DNA of 58,674 nt from Candidatus Eiseniibacteriota bacterium. Lineage in GTDB: Bacteria > Eisenbacteria > RBG-16-71-46 > SZUA-252. Location of the stretch: assembly GCA_003235575.1 (NCBI GenBank), contig QJVW01000107.1, positions 1-58,674 of the forward strand, in the 5' to 3' direction. The notes beneath the pieces are model-generated. The model ran no database searches. It saw only the letters and a list, made by a program, of their open reading frames with translations, and was not told the DNA's origin. The position numbers and the translations under genes were made by a program. Shown piece after piece: positions 1,435 through 6,727 of the stretch; the first letter of the stretch is position 1; every line of letters starts with the position of its first letter.

Positions 1435-2733
1435 CTATCCCAGCCGTCGCGGGTAGAGGGGGTGCGCGGCGCACAGGTCCGCCACCTTGACGCGGATCTT
1501 CTCGAGCGCGGCCTCGTCCGCGCGAAGGCGAAGCGCCTCGTCGATCCATCCGGCGAGGTCGCGCATCGCGGCGACGCCCAGCCCTCGCGTGGTGACGGCC
1601 GGGGTGCCGATGCGGAGCCCGCTCGTTACCGCCGGCGGACGCGGATCGCCGGGCACCGCGTTCTTGTTCACGGTGATTCCCGCGCGGTGGAGCGCGACCT
1701 CGGCTTCGGCGCCGGAGTAGTCGGCCCGCTTCAGATCGACCAGGATGAGATGGTTGTCCGTGCCGCCGGTGACGAGGTCGTAGCCCCGCTCCAGGAGCGC
1801 CGCGGCCAGGGCCTGCGCGTTCTCAACGACGCGCCGGGCGTAGTCGCCGAATTCCGGCGTCGCCGCCTCGCGGAAGCAAACGGCCTTGGCGGCGATCACA
1901 TGCATGAGCGGCCCACCCTGCATCCCGGGAAAGACCGACTTATCAATCGCTTTTGCGAATTCCTTCTTGCAGAGGATGAGCCCACTGCGCGGTCCACGCA
2001 GCGTCTTGTGGGTGGTGGTCGTGACCACGTCGGCGTGCGGCACCGGGCTCGGATGGCACCCCGCCGCGACGAGGCCGGCGATGTGGGCCATGTCGACCAC
2101 GAAGCGCGCGCCCACCTCGTCCGCGATCGCCCGGAAGCGGGCGAAGTCGATGACGCGCGGGTAGGCGCTGGCGCCGGCGACGATCACCTGGGGCCGATGC
2201 TCGCGCGCCATCGCCGCGACCTGATCGTAGTCGAGAAGTCCGGTCTCGGCGGACAGTCCGTACTGGACGGCCTTGAAGACGATCCCCGTCGCCGACACCT
2301 TGTGCCCGTGCGTGAGGTGGCCCCCATGCGCGAGCGCCATGCCGAGAAGGGTGGAGCCCGGAGGCATGAGCGCCAGGTAGGCGGCGAGATTCGCCTGGGC
2401 GCCCGCGTGCGGCTGCACGTTCACGTGCTCGGCGCCGAAGAGCGCCTTCGCCCGTTCGATGGCGAGGGTCTCCGCGACGTCGACATGTTCGCATCCGCCG
2501 TAGTACCGCTTGCCCGGATAGCCCTCGGCGTACTTGTTGGTCAGCGGGGTGCCCATCGCCTCCAGGACCGCTTCGCTGACGAAGTTCTCGGATGCGATCA
2601 GCTCCAGCGTCGCGCGCTGTCGTTCGACCTCGTGCGTGATCGCGGAGGCGATGTCCGGATCGATATCGGCCAGCGGCGCATCCCGTCGCTCGAGACCGGC
2701 CGCGTCCATGGATTCGGTGCGTGGGCTCGTCAC
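1435..2733 (-). CDS. glyA: serine hydroxymethyltransferase
   Basis: PLP enzyme that interconverts serine plus THF and glycine plus 5,10-methylene-THF. The 432-residue length fits the bacterial family. The PLP lysine is Lys243 in [10 protein letters not shown], and the [15 protein letters not shown] substrate/PLP segment lies at 66-80. The start is a GTG at 2733 with an AAGGCG just upstream; the next ATG, at 2709, has no ribosome site. It lies 9 nt after ilvE. The order sua5, LMW phosphatase, (ilvE), glyA resembles the sua5-ywlE-glyA neighbourhood known in Firmicutes. Confidence 0.97.
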
Positions 2734-2742
2734 GCCGACGCC

Positions 2743-3705
2743 TTAGCGAGCCTTCCGGGCGGCGCGCTGCACCTTTCCCGATGTCTCGATCGGGAAGAGC
2801 CAGCCGTGACGGTCCGGTTCGCGCCCCTCGATGATGTCGAAGAACGCTTCCTGGAGTCGTTTCGTGATCTTCCCCACCTTGCCGTCCCCCACGGGGACCC
2901 GGTCCACCGACGTGATCGGGGTGATCTCCGCCGCCGTACCGGTGAAGAAGACCTCGTCGGCCAAGGAAAGCATCTCGCGAGGCAACTGCTCCTCGCGCAC
3001 CTCGTAACCCAGCTCGCGTGCCAAGACCATGATGCAGTCACGCGTGACGCCGGGAAGGATCGCGCTGGCCAGGGAGGGTGTGTAGAGCGTCTCGCCTCGT
3101 ACGAGGAACAGGTTTTCCCCGCTTCCCTCCGCAAGGAACCCGAACGAGTCGAGGGCGATCCCCTCCACGTAGCCGTCGGCGACGGCCTCGAGCTTGATCA
3201 GCTGGCCGTTCAGGTAGTTCGCCCCGGTCTTCGCCATGAAGGGGAACGTGTCGGGCGCGGCGCGGCGCCAGGACGAGACGCGCACGGCGATCCCCTTGTC
3301 CAGTGCCTCTTTGCCCAGGTACTTCCCCCAATCGAGCGTGGCGATGGCGACGTCGACGGGCACGCCGGCCGGGTTCACGCCCAGCGACTTGTACCCACGG
3401 TAGACGACCGGGCGGACGTAGCACGCGTGGCCGCCGTTCCGGCGCACGGTCTCGCGGCACGCCTCCATCAACTCGTCGAACGTGTACGTGATCTCCATCC
3501 GGGCGATCTTGCTGGAGTCGAGAAGACGCTGCACGTGGCGGTCGAGGCGGAAGATCGCGGTGCCGCGGGGCGTATCGTACGCGCGGATCCCCTCGAAGAC
3601 GCTCGACCCGTAGTGCACGACGTGGGACAGCACGTGAATCGTCGCATCCTCGAACGCGACGAGCTTGCCGTTCATCCATACGACCGGCTGGGCATCCCGA
3701 GCCAT
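2743..3705 (-). CDS. ilvE: branched-chain amino acid aminotransferase
   Basis: Class IV PLP aminotransferase for the last step of Ile/Leu/Val synthesis. It has 320 residues with the schiff-base Lys159 in MAKTGANYLNG and the class IV segment EGSGENLFLV near 217-226. The start at 3705 (MARDAQ) is preceded by a strong GGGAGG seven bases upstream; the longer reading from 3729 has none. A class IV relative such as D-amino-acid aminotransferase is possible but the whole-length match is to IlvE. Confidence 0.95.
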   Translation of the reverse strand: MARDAQPVVWMNGKLVAFEDATIHVLSHVVHYGSSVFEGIRAYDTPRGTAIFRLDRHVQRLLDSSKIARMEITYTFDELMEACRETVRRNGGHACYVRPVVYRGYKSLGVNPAGVPVDVAIATLDWGKYLGKEALDKGIAVRVSSWRRAAPDTFPFMAKTGANYLNGQLIKLEAVADGYVEGIALDSFGFLAEGSGENLFLVRGETLYTPSLASAILPGVTRDCIMVLARELGYEVREEQLPREMLSLADEVFFTGTAAEITPITSVDRVPVGDGKVGKITKRLQEAFFDIIEGREPDRHGWLFPIETSGKVQRAARKAR

Positions 3706-3744
3706 GAATTCCTCCCAAGGTCCTGCCACGGTACGCCTGCGCGC

Positions 3745-3754
3745 CGTGACAAAA
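3745..3754. repeat. 10-bp direct repeat, copy 1 (CGTGACAAAA)
   Basis: The ten bases cgtgacaaaa occur here, just after the stop codon of the LMW phosphatase and about 40 bases before the ilvE start, and again at 4268-4277 before the phosphatase start. Both copies have the same orientation. It could be a regulatory site in two 5' leaders or chance. Confidence 0.35.
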
Positions 3755-4243
3755 TTATCGAACGCCCTCCCGCCGCTCGATCGCGTCCCGAATCACGGGA
3801 AGCCAGCGAAGCAGGTGGCTGCGAATACGGTGAAACGTGTCGTCGTAGTCCTCTGCCGTGCCCCCGATCGGGTCGGTCACCCCCGCCGGCTTCATGCCCT
3901 CCTCGGCGCTCCGCTCGGCGATCAGGTGAATCCGGTCCCGCACGTCGGGGGCCAGGCCGCGCGCCCATTCCGCGTGGTGGGACTCCATGGCCAGGATCAG
4001 GTCCGCCTCGCGCACCATGCGGGGCGTCAGCGCCCTGGAGCGGTGCGCGCTCAGATCCAGATCGTGAGCGGCGGCCGTCGTAATGGCCAGCGACGTCGCC
4101 GGGAGTCCGTCCGTAGCCCCGGTGCCCGCGGAGCCGATTTCCACGTTTCCGGTCGGATCGTTTGCAAGCATCGAGCGGAGAAGCGCCTCGGCCATTGGGC
4201 TTCGGCAGGTGTTCCCCGTGCAGATCAGGAGTACGTGGAACAT
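3755..4243 (-). CDS. low-molecular-weight phosphatase, YwlE (protein-arginine phosphatase)-like
   Basis: A 162-residue LMW-PTP fold protein. The P-loop is CTGNTCRS at residues 8-15 with nucleophile Cys8 and Arg14, and the general-acid Asp124 sits in DPIGGT. The residue after the P-loop Asn is Thr12; in Bacillus YwlE the matching Thr11 selects phospho-arginine, while tyrosine phosphatases have Ile there. The sua5 neighbour upstream and glyA downstream also recall the ywlE locus. I therefore infer an arginine phosphatase, but no McsB kinase is visible in the window. A sigma70-like promoter lies directly upstream (4280-4308). Confidence 0.88.
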   Translation of the reverse strand: MFHVLLICTGNTCRSPMAEALLRSMLANDPTGNVEIGSAGTGATDGLPATSLAITTAAAHDLDLSAHRSRALTPRMVREADLILAMESHHAEWARGLAPDVRDRIHLIAERSAEEGMKPAGVTDPIGGTAEDYDDTFHRIRSHLLRWLPVIRDAIERREGVR

Positions 4244-4279: not shown

Positions 4280-4308
4280 AGTCTAGGGTGGCGGCCAAGG
4301 GGCGTCAA
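4280..4308 (-). promoter_or_regulatory. sigma70-type promoter for LMW phosphatase-ilvE-glyA
   Basis: Reading the minus strand: -35 TTGACG (4308-4303), a 17-nt spacer, then -10 TAGACT (4285-4280). The predicted start gives a leader of about 30 nt. The TGA stop codon of the upstream sua5-like gene (4307-4305) lies inside the -35 hexamer. Confidence 0.65.
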
Positions 4309-4949
4309 GTGTGGTCGCCGCCGATATCTGCGAGACCAACGGCACCCGTCCGAAGCACCGCGACGGTACTTCCGTCCACGCGCACCAGGGTCGACGGCAC
4401 GCCCCCGAGGTCTCCTCCATCGATTGCGATCGACGCCCCCGCTCGGGCGGCGTCCGCCATCCGGGCCGGCGGGTCGCCGCCCGGCCGGTTCGCCGACGTC
4501 GAGACGAGCAGGCCCCCGGAGGCCCGAACGACCTCTCGAAGGAACGGGCTGCCGGGGCACCGAACCGCCGCCGTGCCGTCGGCGGCGCGGAGCGCCTCCG
4601 GGATCGACGTGGAGGCCGGGAGAACGATCGTGAGCGCCCCCGGCCAGTGTCGCTCCGCCAGTTCCAGCGCGCGGACCGGGACCGTGACGTCCCAGCGGCC
4701 CAGCGCGTGTGGATCGTCGATCAGGAGAACCCAGCCCTTCTTCGCCGCGTCGCGCGGCTTCAGCGCGCGCAGCCGCTCCAGCCCCGCGGGCCGGTCGGCG
4801 CGGACGTGATAGCCGTAGAGGCCCTCGGCGGGCAGCAGGGCGATTTCTCCGTCCGCGAGGCGGGCGGCAGCCTCGTCGCGGGCATGGGCCCAGGAGGCAG
4901 GGTCTTCGAGGTTGATGCGCAGCACCGGCGGCTCGGCCGGGATCGCCAC
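4305..4949 (-). CDS. divergent Sua5/YciO/YrdC-domain protein
   Basis: A 214-residue YrdC-like protein. The family makes L-threonylcarbamoyl-AMP from Thr, bicarbonate and ATP for tRNA t6A37. Visible marks are an ATP/Thr-site-like LLPAEGLYGYHV (canonical PTETVYGL), the ALKPRDAAKKGW basic loop and the STSANRPGG C-terminal motif. The first two depart from consensus: no PTET, and no Pro closing the KxRxxxP loop. It may be a true t6A enzyme or a YciO-like paralogue of unknown role. GTG start, 3 nt after purE. Confidence 0.82.
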   Translation of the reverse strand: MAIPAEPPVLRINLEDPASWAHARDEAAARLADGEIALLPAEGLYGYHVRADRPAGLERLRALKPRDAAKKGWVLLIDDPHALGRWDVTVPVRALELAERHWPGALTIVLPASTSIPEALRAADGTAAVRCPGSPFLREVVRASGGLLVSTSANRPGGDPPARMADAARAGASIAIDGGDLGGVPSTLVRVDGSTVAVLRTGAVGLADIGGDHT

Positions 4950-4952
4950 GCC

Positions 4953-5429
4953 CTAGACCTTTCCGCCGCTCGCGAGGTTCTCCTTCATGGTTCGCAGCTT
5001 CTCGTGGAGCGCGGCGTCGTTCAGCGCGAGGATCTGCACCGCCAGGATCGCCGCGTTCTTCGCGCCGGGGGCGCCGATGGCGACGGTCGCCACGGGGACG
5101 CCGGGCGGCATCTGCACCGTGGCGTAGAGCGAGTCCGCCCCGCCCAGCGCGGTTCCCAGGAGCGGCACGCCGATCACCGGGAGCGTCGTATGCGCCGCGA
5201 CCGTCCCCGCCAGGTGGTTCGCCATGCCGGCGGCCGCGATGAACACCCGAACACCGCGTCCGGGGGCGGCGTCGACGATCTGTCGAACCTTCTCCGGCGA
5301 GCGATGCGCCGAGGCGTGATGCATTTCGTGCGCGACGCCGAAGGAGTCCAGCACCTTCGCCGTCGCTTCCATGGTCGCGCGATCGTTCTCGCTTCCGAAG
5401 AGGATCGCAACACGGCTAGTCGAGGTCAT
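4953..5429 (-). CDS. purE: N5-carboxyaminoimidazole ribonucleotide mutase
   Basis: Class I PurE of 158 residues, converting N5-CAIR to CAIR in purine synthesis. Typical segments are the phosphate-binding FGSENDRATM near the N-terminus, HHASAHRSPE with the catalytic-loop His, and AAAGMANHLAG. No PurK is visible in the window. The ATG overlaps the TGA of purD (ATGA), so translation is probably coupled. The long open frame reading further upstream is only a shadow of purD. Confidence 0.96.
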   Translation of the reverse strand: MTSTSRVAILFGSENDRATMEATAKVLDSFGVAHEMHHASAHRSPEKVRQIVDAAPGRGVRVFIAAAGMANHLAGTVAAHTTLPVIGVPLLGTALGGADSLYATVQMPPGVPVATVAIGAPGAKNAAILAVQILALNDAALHEKLRTMKENLASGGKV

Positions 5430-6727
5430 GGATCGGTTCTCCCCACCTGTTCGGATGTCAGCGCGATGTCGCGCCGGTATTGCATGCCTGCGAAATAGAT
5501 CCGGGACGTGGCCGCGTACGCGGCCTCCCGGGCTTCCTCGAGGTTGACGCCGCGCGCGGTCACGCCCAGGACCCGGCCGCCGCTCGTGACCCACCGTCCC
5601 ATGTGCTTGTCGATGCCCGCGTGGAAGAGATGGATCCCGTGCTGCCACGGCCCCTCGAGCCCTTCGATGTCGTCTCCGGTCGCCGGTCGCGCGGGATAGC
5701 CGCGTGACGCAAGGACCACGCAGACGGCCGCTCCGCGGTACTTCAAAAACGTCGCGTGCCGATCCGCGGGCAGCCGGCCGAGCGCGGCATTCCAGAGCAG
5801 CGGCAGCGCATCTTCCTCCAGGAGCGGCAGAACCACCTGCGCCTCCGGATCCCCGAAGCGAGCGTTGAATTCGAGCACCTGCGGCCCCTCCGACGTCAGC
5901 ATCAGACCGAGGTAGAGGATCCCGCGGTACGGCGTGTTCTCCTCGCGGAGGGTGCGCAGGATCGGATCGACGATCCGCTTCCCGAAGGCGATCGCGTCCG
6001 CCTCCGACGGCAGGCGCGCCGGCGCGCACGCGCCCATCCCGCCGGTGTTCGGACCCGTGTCGCCTTCTCCGATCCGCTTGTGATCCCGCGCGGGCGGAAA
6101 GAGCATCCACCGCTGCCCGTCGGTGAGGACCAATACCGACGCTTCCTCTCCCCGGATGAAGTCCTCGATGACGATCGTCTCACCGGCCGGGCCCAGGGCG
6201 CCGTCGCGCATCCAGGCGTCGACCGTGGCGCGGGCCTCGTCGGCGTTCTCCGCGATGACGACGCCCTTCCCCGCGGCCAATCCGTCCGCCTTGAGGACGA
6301 TCGGATAGGTAACCGTCGCGAGCAGCGCATCCGCTTCGTCCGCCGAGGTCGCGACGCGATACGGCGCGGTCGGCAGGCCGAGGCGGGTCAAGAGATCCTT
6401 CGTGTAGCGCTTGCTCGATTCCAGGCGCGCGGCCGCGGCCCCCGGGCCGAGCGTCGCGATGCCCACGGCGCGCAGGGCGTCCGCCAGACCCGCCGCCAAC
6501 GCCACCTCGGGGCCGACCACCACGAAGTCGATCTCGTTCTTCTTGGACCAGCCCACGATCGACTCCACGTCGTCGGGGGCGACCGGGATGCGCTCGGCGA
6601 GCGGTTCCATGCCGGGATTGCCGGGCGCGACGAAGATTTGCGGCGAGTCCTCCGCCCGATGGAGCGCCTCGACGATGGCGTGCTCGCGGCCCCCCTGCCC
6701 TACGACCAAGACGCGCATGCCGATCAT
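5426..6727 (-). CDS. purD: phosphoribosylamine-glycine ligase
   Basis: ATP-grasp GAR synthetase, 433 residues: 5-phosphoribosylamine + Gly + ATP to GAR. The N-terminal GQGGREHAI, the ATP-grasp LKADGLAAGKGV, the GPNTGGMGA substrate loop and the metal-binding LEFNARFGDPE are all present. The first ATG (6727) overlaps the gatB stop as ATGA; a second ATG three codons in is a possible alternative. The purD-purE pair is embedded between gatB and sua5 rather than in a purine operon. Confidence 0.97.
   Translation of the reverse strand: MIGMRVLVVGQGGREHAIVEALHRAEDSPQIFVAPGNPGMEPLAERIPVAPDDVESIVGWSKKNEIDFVVVGPEVALAAGLADALRAVGIATLGPGAAAARLESSKRYTKDLLTRLGLPTAPYRVATSADEADALLATVTYPIVLKADGLAAGKGVVIAENADEARATVDAWMRDGALGPAGETIVIEDFIRGEEASVLVLTDGQRWMLFPPARDHKRIGEGDTGPNTGGMGACAPARLPSEADAIAFGKRIVDPILRTLREENTPYRGILYLGLMLTSEGPQVLEFNARFGDPEAQVVLPLLEEDALPLLWNAALGRLPADRHATFLKYRGAAVCVVLASRGYPARPATGDDIEGLEGPWQHGIHLFHAGIDKHMGRWVTSGGRVLGVTARGVNLEEAREAAYAATSRIYFAGMQYRRDIALTSEQVGRTDP

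Follow-up and report, generated by a model that had tools for sequence, protein, structure and literature searches.

A predicted YwlE-type protein-arginine phosphatase in Candidatus Eisenbacteria, a lineage that encodes McsA, McsB and ClpC beside outer-membrane genes

In the window, by which we mean the whole 58,674-nucleotide stretch of DNA that was analysed, we identified a low molecular weight (LMW) phosphatase gene whose product is probably, with a likelihood that we put at about 0.8 from sequence comparisons, a protein-arginine phosphatase of the YwlE type that would act as the eraser of a McsA/McsB/ClpC system in an uncultured diderm bacterium of Candidatus Eisenbacteria. Protein-arginine phosphorylation is usually described in Gram-positive bacteria and has been studied mostly in Firmicutes. 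The phosphatase itself is an ordinary-looking YwlE orthologue; what makes it noteworthy is its lineage, which encodes the kinase, the activator and the reader beside outer-membrane genes, without CtsR.

Results

The phosphatase gene is a complete open reading frame on the minus strand, with an ATG start, 162 codons and zero internal stops. Its features are:

3755..4243, minus strand: LMW phosphatase of the YwlE type (predicted protein-arginine phosphatase), 162 aa; from the open reading frame, Pfam, profile search and tree
4199..4222, minus strand: P-loop CTGNTCRS (Cys8 nucleophile, Thr12 specificity position, Arg14); from the motif, with the role of the position taken from PMC8001253
3857..3874, minus strand: acid loop DPIGGT, residues 124-129 (Asp124 predicted general acid); from the motif, with its role inferred from the family

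The P-loop runs C8-T9-G10-N11-T12-C13-R14-S15. Both this loop, with its Thr, and the DPIGGT acid loop are as the initial annotation had described them, and Thr is found in 9/9 members of the same family, whose phosphatases share 57-62% identity. The protein belongs to the LMW-PTP superfamily, with a Pfam LMWPc (PF01451) score of 98.9 bits (cut-off 23.2), a CX5R(S/T) loop and a distant Asp-Pro; C8, R14, S15, D124 and P125 do not vary across the 17 rows aligned. Its own genome holds a single match to it at E <= 1e-3. Used as a query, the window phosphatase found a match in 36 of the 39 genomes searched, its own included, and in 26/26 of those that are nearly complete (completeness of 90% or more, contamination of 5% or less); this recurrence, together with the Thr of the nine family members, argues that the gene is not a chance find. 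Arsenate reductase (ArsC) was also considered and ruled out, with NCBIfam scores of 41.7 bits against a cut-off of 215 and 40 against 174.3.

The genes around the phosphatase form the order purE-sua5-phosphatase-ilvE-glyA:

4953..5429, minus strand: purE (AIR carboxylase), beside sua5; PF00731, 186.2 bits, with the start picked by eye within the open reading frame 4953-6110
4305..4949, minus strand: sua5/tsaC-like L-threonylcarbamoyladenylate synthase; NCBIfam 91.2 bits (below the 123.2 cut-off), Pfam 110.1 (above 25.1)
2743..3729, minus strand: ilvE, branched-chain amino acid transaminase; NCBIfam/Pfam scan
1435..2733, minus strand: glyA, serine hydroxymethyltransferase; NCBIfam/Pfam scan

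The sua5 and glyA neighbours that had been claimed for the gene are thus both there, with ilvE separating the phosphatase from glyA. The order sua5-ywlE-(ilvE)-(rpiB)-glyA is repeated in Eisenbacteria and also, without ilvE, in Firmicutes, and portions of it occur in Planctomycetota and Verrucomicrobiota; B. subtilis ywlE presumably lies in the same sua5/glyA-type neighbourhood. Because an order of the sua5-ywlE-rpiB-glyA type is common to the Firmicutes loci, it argues for a YwlE-type protein. In the window (2743-4243) and the other own-family loci, no rpiB was found in the interval from the phosphatase to glyA; in several other members of the class rpiB adjoins ilvE. The search for purE covered 100 loci, many of which do not extend far enough to include it; this gene lay within the fetched stretch at 7/9 own-family loci and, outside the family, at L010, L012, L019, L020, L023, L027 and L043.

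Sequence searches pointed to more than one kind of LMW phosphatase. A single-sequence search of the PDB placed E. coli Wzb (2e-17) before 4egs (6e-17) and YwlE (2e-16), and the best NCBIfam model was Wzb too, far below its cut-off (81.5 against 243). When the query was a profile built from 17 sequences of the class, including that of the window protein, YwlE chains came first (5e-35), then 4egs and then a Vibrio Wzb. In a maximum-likelihood tree of 124 rows, midpoint-rooted and built without MPtpA, S. aureus PtpA or the mammalian enzymes, a branch with 96/90 support stands between the window protein, YwlE and 4egs on one side and YfkJ, Slr0328 and the Vibrio LMW-PTP on the other, so that the placement with tyrosine-specific enzymes, which the initial annotation had named as contrary to its reading, did not occur. 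The latter three group with an Eisenbacteria paralogue (L153) at 100/98, and a Kocuria row with Ile joins them at 100/93; two rows with Thr, L065 and L100, fall on this tyrosine-phosphatase side. The window protein and YwlE are not close sisters: YwlE and 4egs sit within Bacillota and the window protein with its own family and class. It is because YwlE comes first in the profile search and the tree sets the protein away from the classical PTPs that we read it as YwlE-type.

The predicted structure of the window protein (mean pLDDT 95.9) resembles YwlE over its full length (4kk4: Z 25.2, rmsd 1.6, 151 aligned, 32% identity), tied with M. tuberculosis PtpA (Z 24.8), and the top Foldseek row was Wzb. 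Because YwlE and the tyrosine phosphatases tie, structure cannot discriminate between them.

These results bear on a first alternative, that the protein is a Wzb-like phosphotyrosine phosphatase and the partner of a bacterial tyrosine kinase, its Thr being incidental. Wzb leads the single-sequence PDB, NCBIfam and Foldseek results, and in the tree it is placed, with weak support (88/51), within the larger side that holds YwlE; E. coli and Vibrio Wzb (2wmy, 2fek, 7dhd) share the fold and about 32% identity with the window protein. However, the Wzb P-loop is CVGNICRS, with Ile where CTGNTCRS has the Thr of the specificity position, YwlE is first in the profile search, and the window gene has purE, sua5, ilvE and glyA as its neighbours, a setting that we take to differ from that of wzb, as well as a kinase operon in its relatives. 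We therefore regard a Wzb-like role as unlikely.

That operon is part of the evidence that the YwlE-type phosphatase belongs to an arginine-phosphorylation system. Of the 47 genomes of the phylum (the Candidatus Eisenbacteria lineage), 44 contain the kinase family PF00217, among them all eight other members of the same family. The name of the phylum comes from L023, a Candidatus Eisenbacteria record: one kinase match, at identical coordinates, belongs both to G045, of the same class, and to G049, the genome of L023. A sister McsB (L108) reached 435.2 bits, above the 385 that NCBIfam sets as its cut-off for protein-arginine kinases, and matched solved protein-arginine kinases in the PDB at 9e-92, the first chain with another name being a taurocyamine kinase at 4e-46. 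Across 41 McsB rows, in which four genomes were read twice, the NEEDH motif occurs in 41 and the cysteine motif TxCPTNxGT in 39. An McsA-like gene lies beside mcsB in 17/17 genomes examined (21 loci) and encodes four CxxC motifs in each row; the one sister McsA that was scanned fell short of its NCBIfam cut-off (184.5 bits against 210). ClpC of the sisters has Clp_N and AAA domains, with two GTEH motifs in 21/21 rows (L101-L121). The frequency of PF00217, the mcsA-mcsB-clpC cluster of the sisters and the scores and motifs of McsB are among the reasons for this reading. The partners whose presence the initial annotation had proposed to check were accordingly found in relatives as far as McsA, McsB and ClpC are concerned; the search was negative for CtsR in the phylum and for McsB (PF00217 and NF002194) in the assembly of the window's own genome.

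In sister genomes the gene order is lysS-lolC-lolD-mcsA-mcsB-clpC-bamA-lpxD. The segment lolD-mcsA-mcsB-clpC is contiguous in every one of the 17 phylum genomes examined, which are a subset of the 44 positives and contribute 21 loci (L101-L121), and lolC-lolD-mcsA-mcsB-clpC are co-directional in all 11 of the longer stretches (L111-L121). In these same 11, lysS lies upstream in 10 and was not found in L119, and downstream genes include bamA in 10 (the exception is L118) and lpxD in nine. The products of lysS, bamA and lpxD score above NCBIfam cut-offs, and the best models for the lolC/E-like and lolD-like genes fall just under theirs (350.5 against 362.45 and 263.4 against 307.75). The predicted BamA and LpxD indicate a diderm that has genes for the outer membrane and for lipid A.

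In the window's own genome, base 1 of contig C61 falls inside clpC. The contig covers residues 348-761 of the sister protein at 84% identity and continues with bamA and lpxD, collinear with the sisters. Searches of this assembly, which is estimated to be 94.79% complete, did not find the first 347 residues of clpC, a contig on the far side of the gap, or orthologues of lolD (best 43%, against 68-86% among own-family sisters), lolC (best 33%, partial) or lysS (best 33%). A second assembly, G019, has a 100-N scaffold gap (L118:10290-10389) at the same point of clpC as the start of our contig (L152), and a break shared by two assemblies suggests a stretch that assembles badly. Since loss of lysS is unlikely, since lysS, lolC and lolD are all missing alongside, and since the contig begins inside clpC, mcsAB of this genome most likely lies, unassembled, in the gap. 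Loss of mcsB from this genome is, for the same reasons, the less likely explanation. A stronger version of it, in which the window protein is a YwlE orthologue that was retained after its lineage lost the kinase and now has some other target, draws on the missing PF00217 and NF002194 matches; it is highly improbable, given that mcsB is missing together with lysS, lolC, lolD and the beginning of clpC and that G019 is interrupted at the same place.

Kinase and phosphatase also occur together more widely. Of 50 named genomes with the phosphatase, which represent 50 of the 80 best named loci in the genome collection, 44 have PF00217; at least some of the six without it (L030, L037, L041, L057, L071 and L079) are incomplete MAGs. 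PF00217 was found in 99/101 genomes sampled from the phylum of G079, a Gemmatimonadota (Gemmatimonadetes) record, in 0/118 sampled from the phylum of G066, a Proteobacteria record, and in none of 14 control genomes. CtsR is the repressor that regulates the operon of Firmicutes and is not taken here as a defining component; the corresponding family (PF05848) had a match in 0/47 genomes of the phylum, with Lactococcus lactis matching as a positive control.

At the fifth P-loop position, where the window protein has the Thr of YwlE-type enzymes, YwlE and PtpB also carry Thr, and PtpA carries Ile (PMC8001253). The same text relates that exchanging this Thr for Ile in YwlE had, in earlier work, raised phosphotyrosine activity and lowered phosphoarginine activity, that pNPP hydrolysis was about 6-fold higher in PtpB T11I, and that the Thr of PtpB is taken to set its phosphoarginine preference (PMC8001253). 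The presence of Thr12 at this published specificity position is thus a further reason for the YwlE-type reading. Taken by itself, however, the residue is weak evidence because relatives that bear the kinase carry Ile, Val or Gln there. Among 36 class orthologues, 29 have Thr, five Ile, one Val and one Gln, and PF00217 was found in the genomes of all seven that lack Thr, among them G020, which has an in-frame TGA; L017, L018, L165, L172 and L177 are the class loci that combine an Ile-type YwlE gene with PF00217 in the genome. The best 80 named loci, collected with a pattern that admits Thr, Ile or Gln only, divide into 65 with Thr and 15 with Ile. In the 50 named genomes the kinase accompanies Thr in 35 cases and is missing in three, and accompanies Ile in nine (L028, L032, L038, L039, L046, L055, L068, L070 and L078) and is missing in three, so that residue and kinase are not significantly linked in this sample (Fisher p 0.14). 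A simple motif-match count gave no clear pattern between the residue after Asp-Pro and Thr or Ile, and well-supported branches of the tree require that Thr was gained or lost at least five times. Thr12 is thus a lead toward a putative phosphoarginine specificity and no proof of it.

This drift, in which orthologues hold their genomic position while the specificity residue passes to Ile, Val or Gln, could also be accommodated by a phosphatase of broad or dual specificity that acts mainly on something other than phosphoarginine or phosphotyrosine, such as a small phosphorylated metabolite tied to Sua5, RpiB or GlyA. The conserved neighbourhood of sua5, rpiB, glyA and ilvE would fit such a role. 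However, orthologues in Firmicutes, presumably including B. subtilis YwlE, have the same neighbourhood, and the kinase family accompanies the phosphatase in 44/50 named genomes; we consider this second alternative very unlikely.

Discussion

According to the model that we favour, Cys8 of the YwlE-type enzyme would attack the phosphorus of phosphoarginine in the P-loop, and Asp124 would protonate the leaving guanidinium before water frees the phosphate. Thr12 would favour phosphoarginine over phosphotyrosine. McsB, activated by McsA, would mark proteins, ClpC would recognise the mark and bring about degradation, and the window phosphatase would remove the arginine-phosphate mark. Here we infer the substrate, the direction of action, the coupling to ClpC and the mcsAB of the genome itself. 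As a predicted specificity, the arginine-phosphatase reading of the initial annotation is supported by the tree and by McsA, McsB and ClpC in relatives.

The window protein shares the P-loop CTGNTCRS and a DPxGG acid loop with YwlE of B. subtilis and G. stearothermophilus (4kk3, 4kk4, 4etn, 4pic), from which it differs in having Ile in place of Phe after Asp-Pro and in an overall identity of about 30%. Its host, unlike the hosts of YwlE, is a diderm, and no CtsR was found in the 47 genomes of its phylum. S. aureus PtpB, a phosphoarginine phosphatase to which we liken it from the published description, likewise has Thr at the fifth P-loop position (PMC8001253).

It should be noted that McsAB in a diderm is already known, from Chlamydia (PMC10128030). 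The expectation that a phosphoarginine system would be notable in a diderm of the present type is thus upheld by the kinase, activator and ClpC of relatives, and tempered by what is already in print. Chlamydia has a McsAB operon, and its ClpC protease depended in assays on casein phosphorylated at arginine (PMC10128030); overexpression of ClpC was accompanied by a rise in mcsA and mcsB transcripts (PMC11708050). Chlamydia is therefore likewise a diderm with McsA, McsB and ClpC; however, its mcsAB lies apart from clpC, whereas in the Eisenbacteria sisters mcsA-mcsB-clpC are adjacent and stand among lol-like genes, bamA and lpxD. The YwlE-type phosphatase of Eisenbacteria is encoded away from mcsA-mcsB-clpC, and "YwlE" does not appear in the text of either Chlamydia paper (PMC10128030, PMC11708050). 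A paper on phosphoarginine in mycobacteria notes that neither a McsB homologue nor an arginine phosphatase is known there (PMC9604228). The literature searched, which left most subscription papers outside its scope and so does not prove absence, contained no McsB from Eisenbacteria or Gemmatimonadota, and mentioned neither the spread of the kinase (99/101 against 0/118) nor its place among outer-membrane genes.

Collectively these observations raise the possibility, which we put forward tentatively, that arginine-phosphate marking with a YwlE-type eraser is old and near-universal in several LPS-type diderm phyla (Eisenbacteria, Gemmatimonadota, Zixibacteria and others), where it would operate without CtsR. 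In Eisenbacteria at least it would sit inside an envelope-building cluster (lolCD, bamA, lpxD), guarding or tuning outer-membrane assembly, and in some lineages the specificity residue of the eraser would have changed while the kinase was kept. Were this so, whole diderm phyla would have the kinase, and Eisenbacteria the activator, reader and eraser as well; control by CtsR would be an addition particular to Firmicutes and not central to the system, and phosphoarginine proteomics in cultured Gemmatimonadota or Planctomycetota would be a direct test. The repeated changes from Thr to Ile in kinase-bearing genomes offer natural variants with which to weigh that residue.

Two minor observations concern the kinase operon. 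At the Planctomycetota mcsB loci L132, L135 and L136, the McsA-like gene was found to encode only two CxxC motifs and clpC was not found within the fetched stretch. The C-terminal region of McsB in Eisenbacteria (L101-L121) has Arg-Asn-x-x-Arg-Ala, against Arg-Asp-x-x-Arg-Ala in two solved McsB chains; the substitutions R337A/D338A in this region, a phosphoarginine receptor of McsB, are described as destabilising its multimers (PMC8370763).
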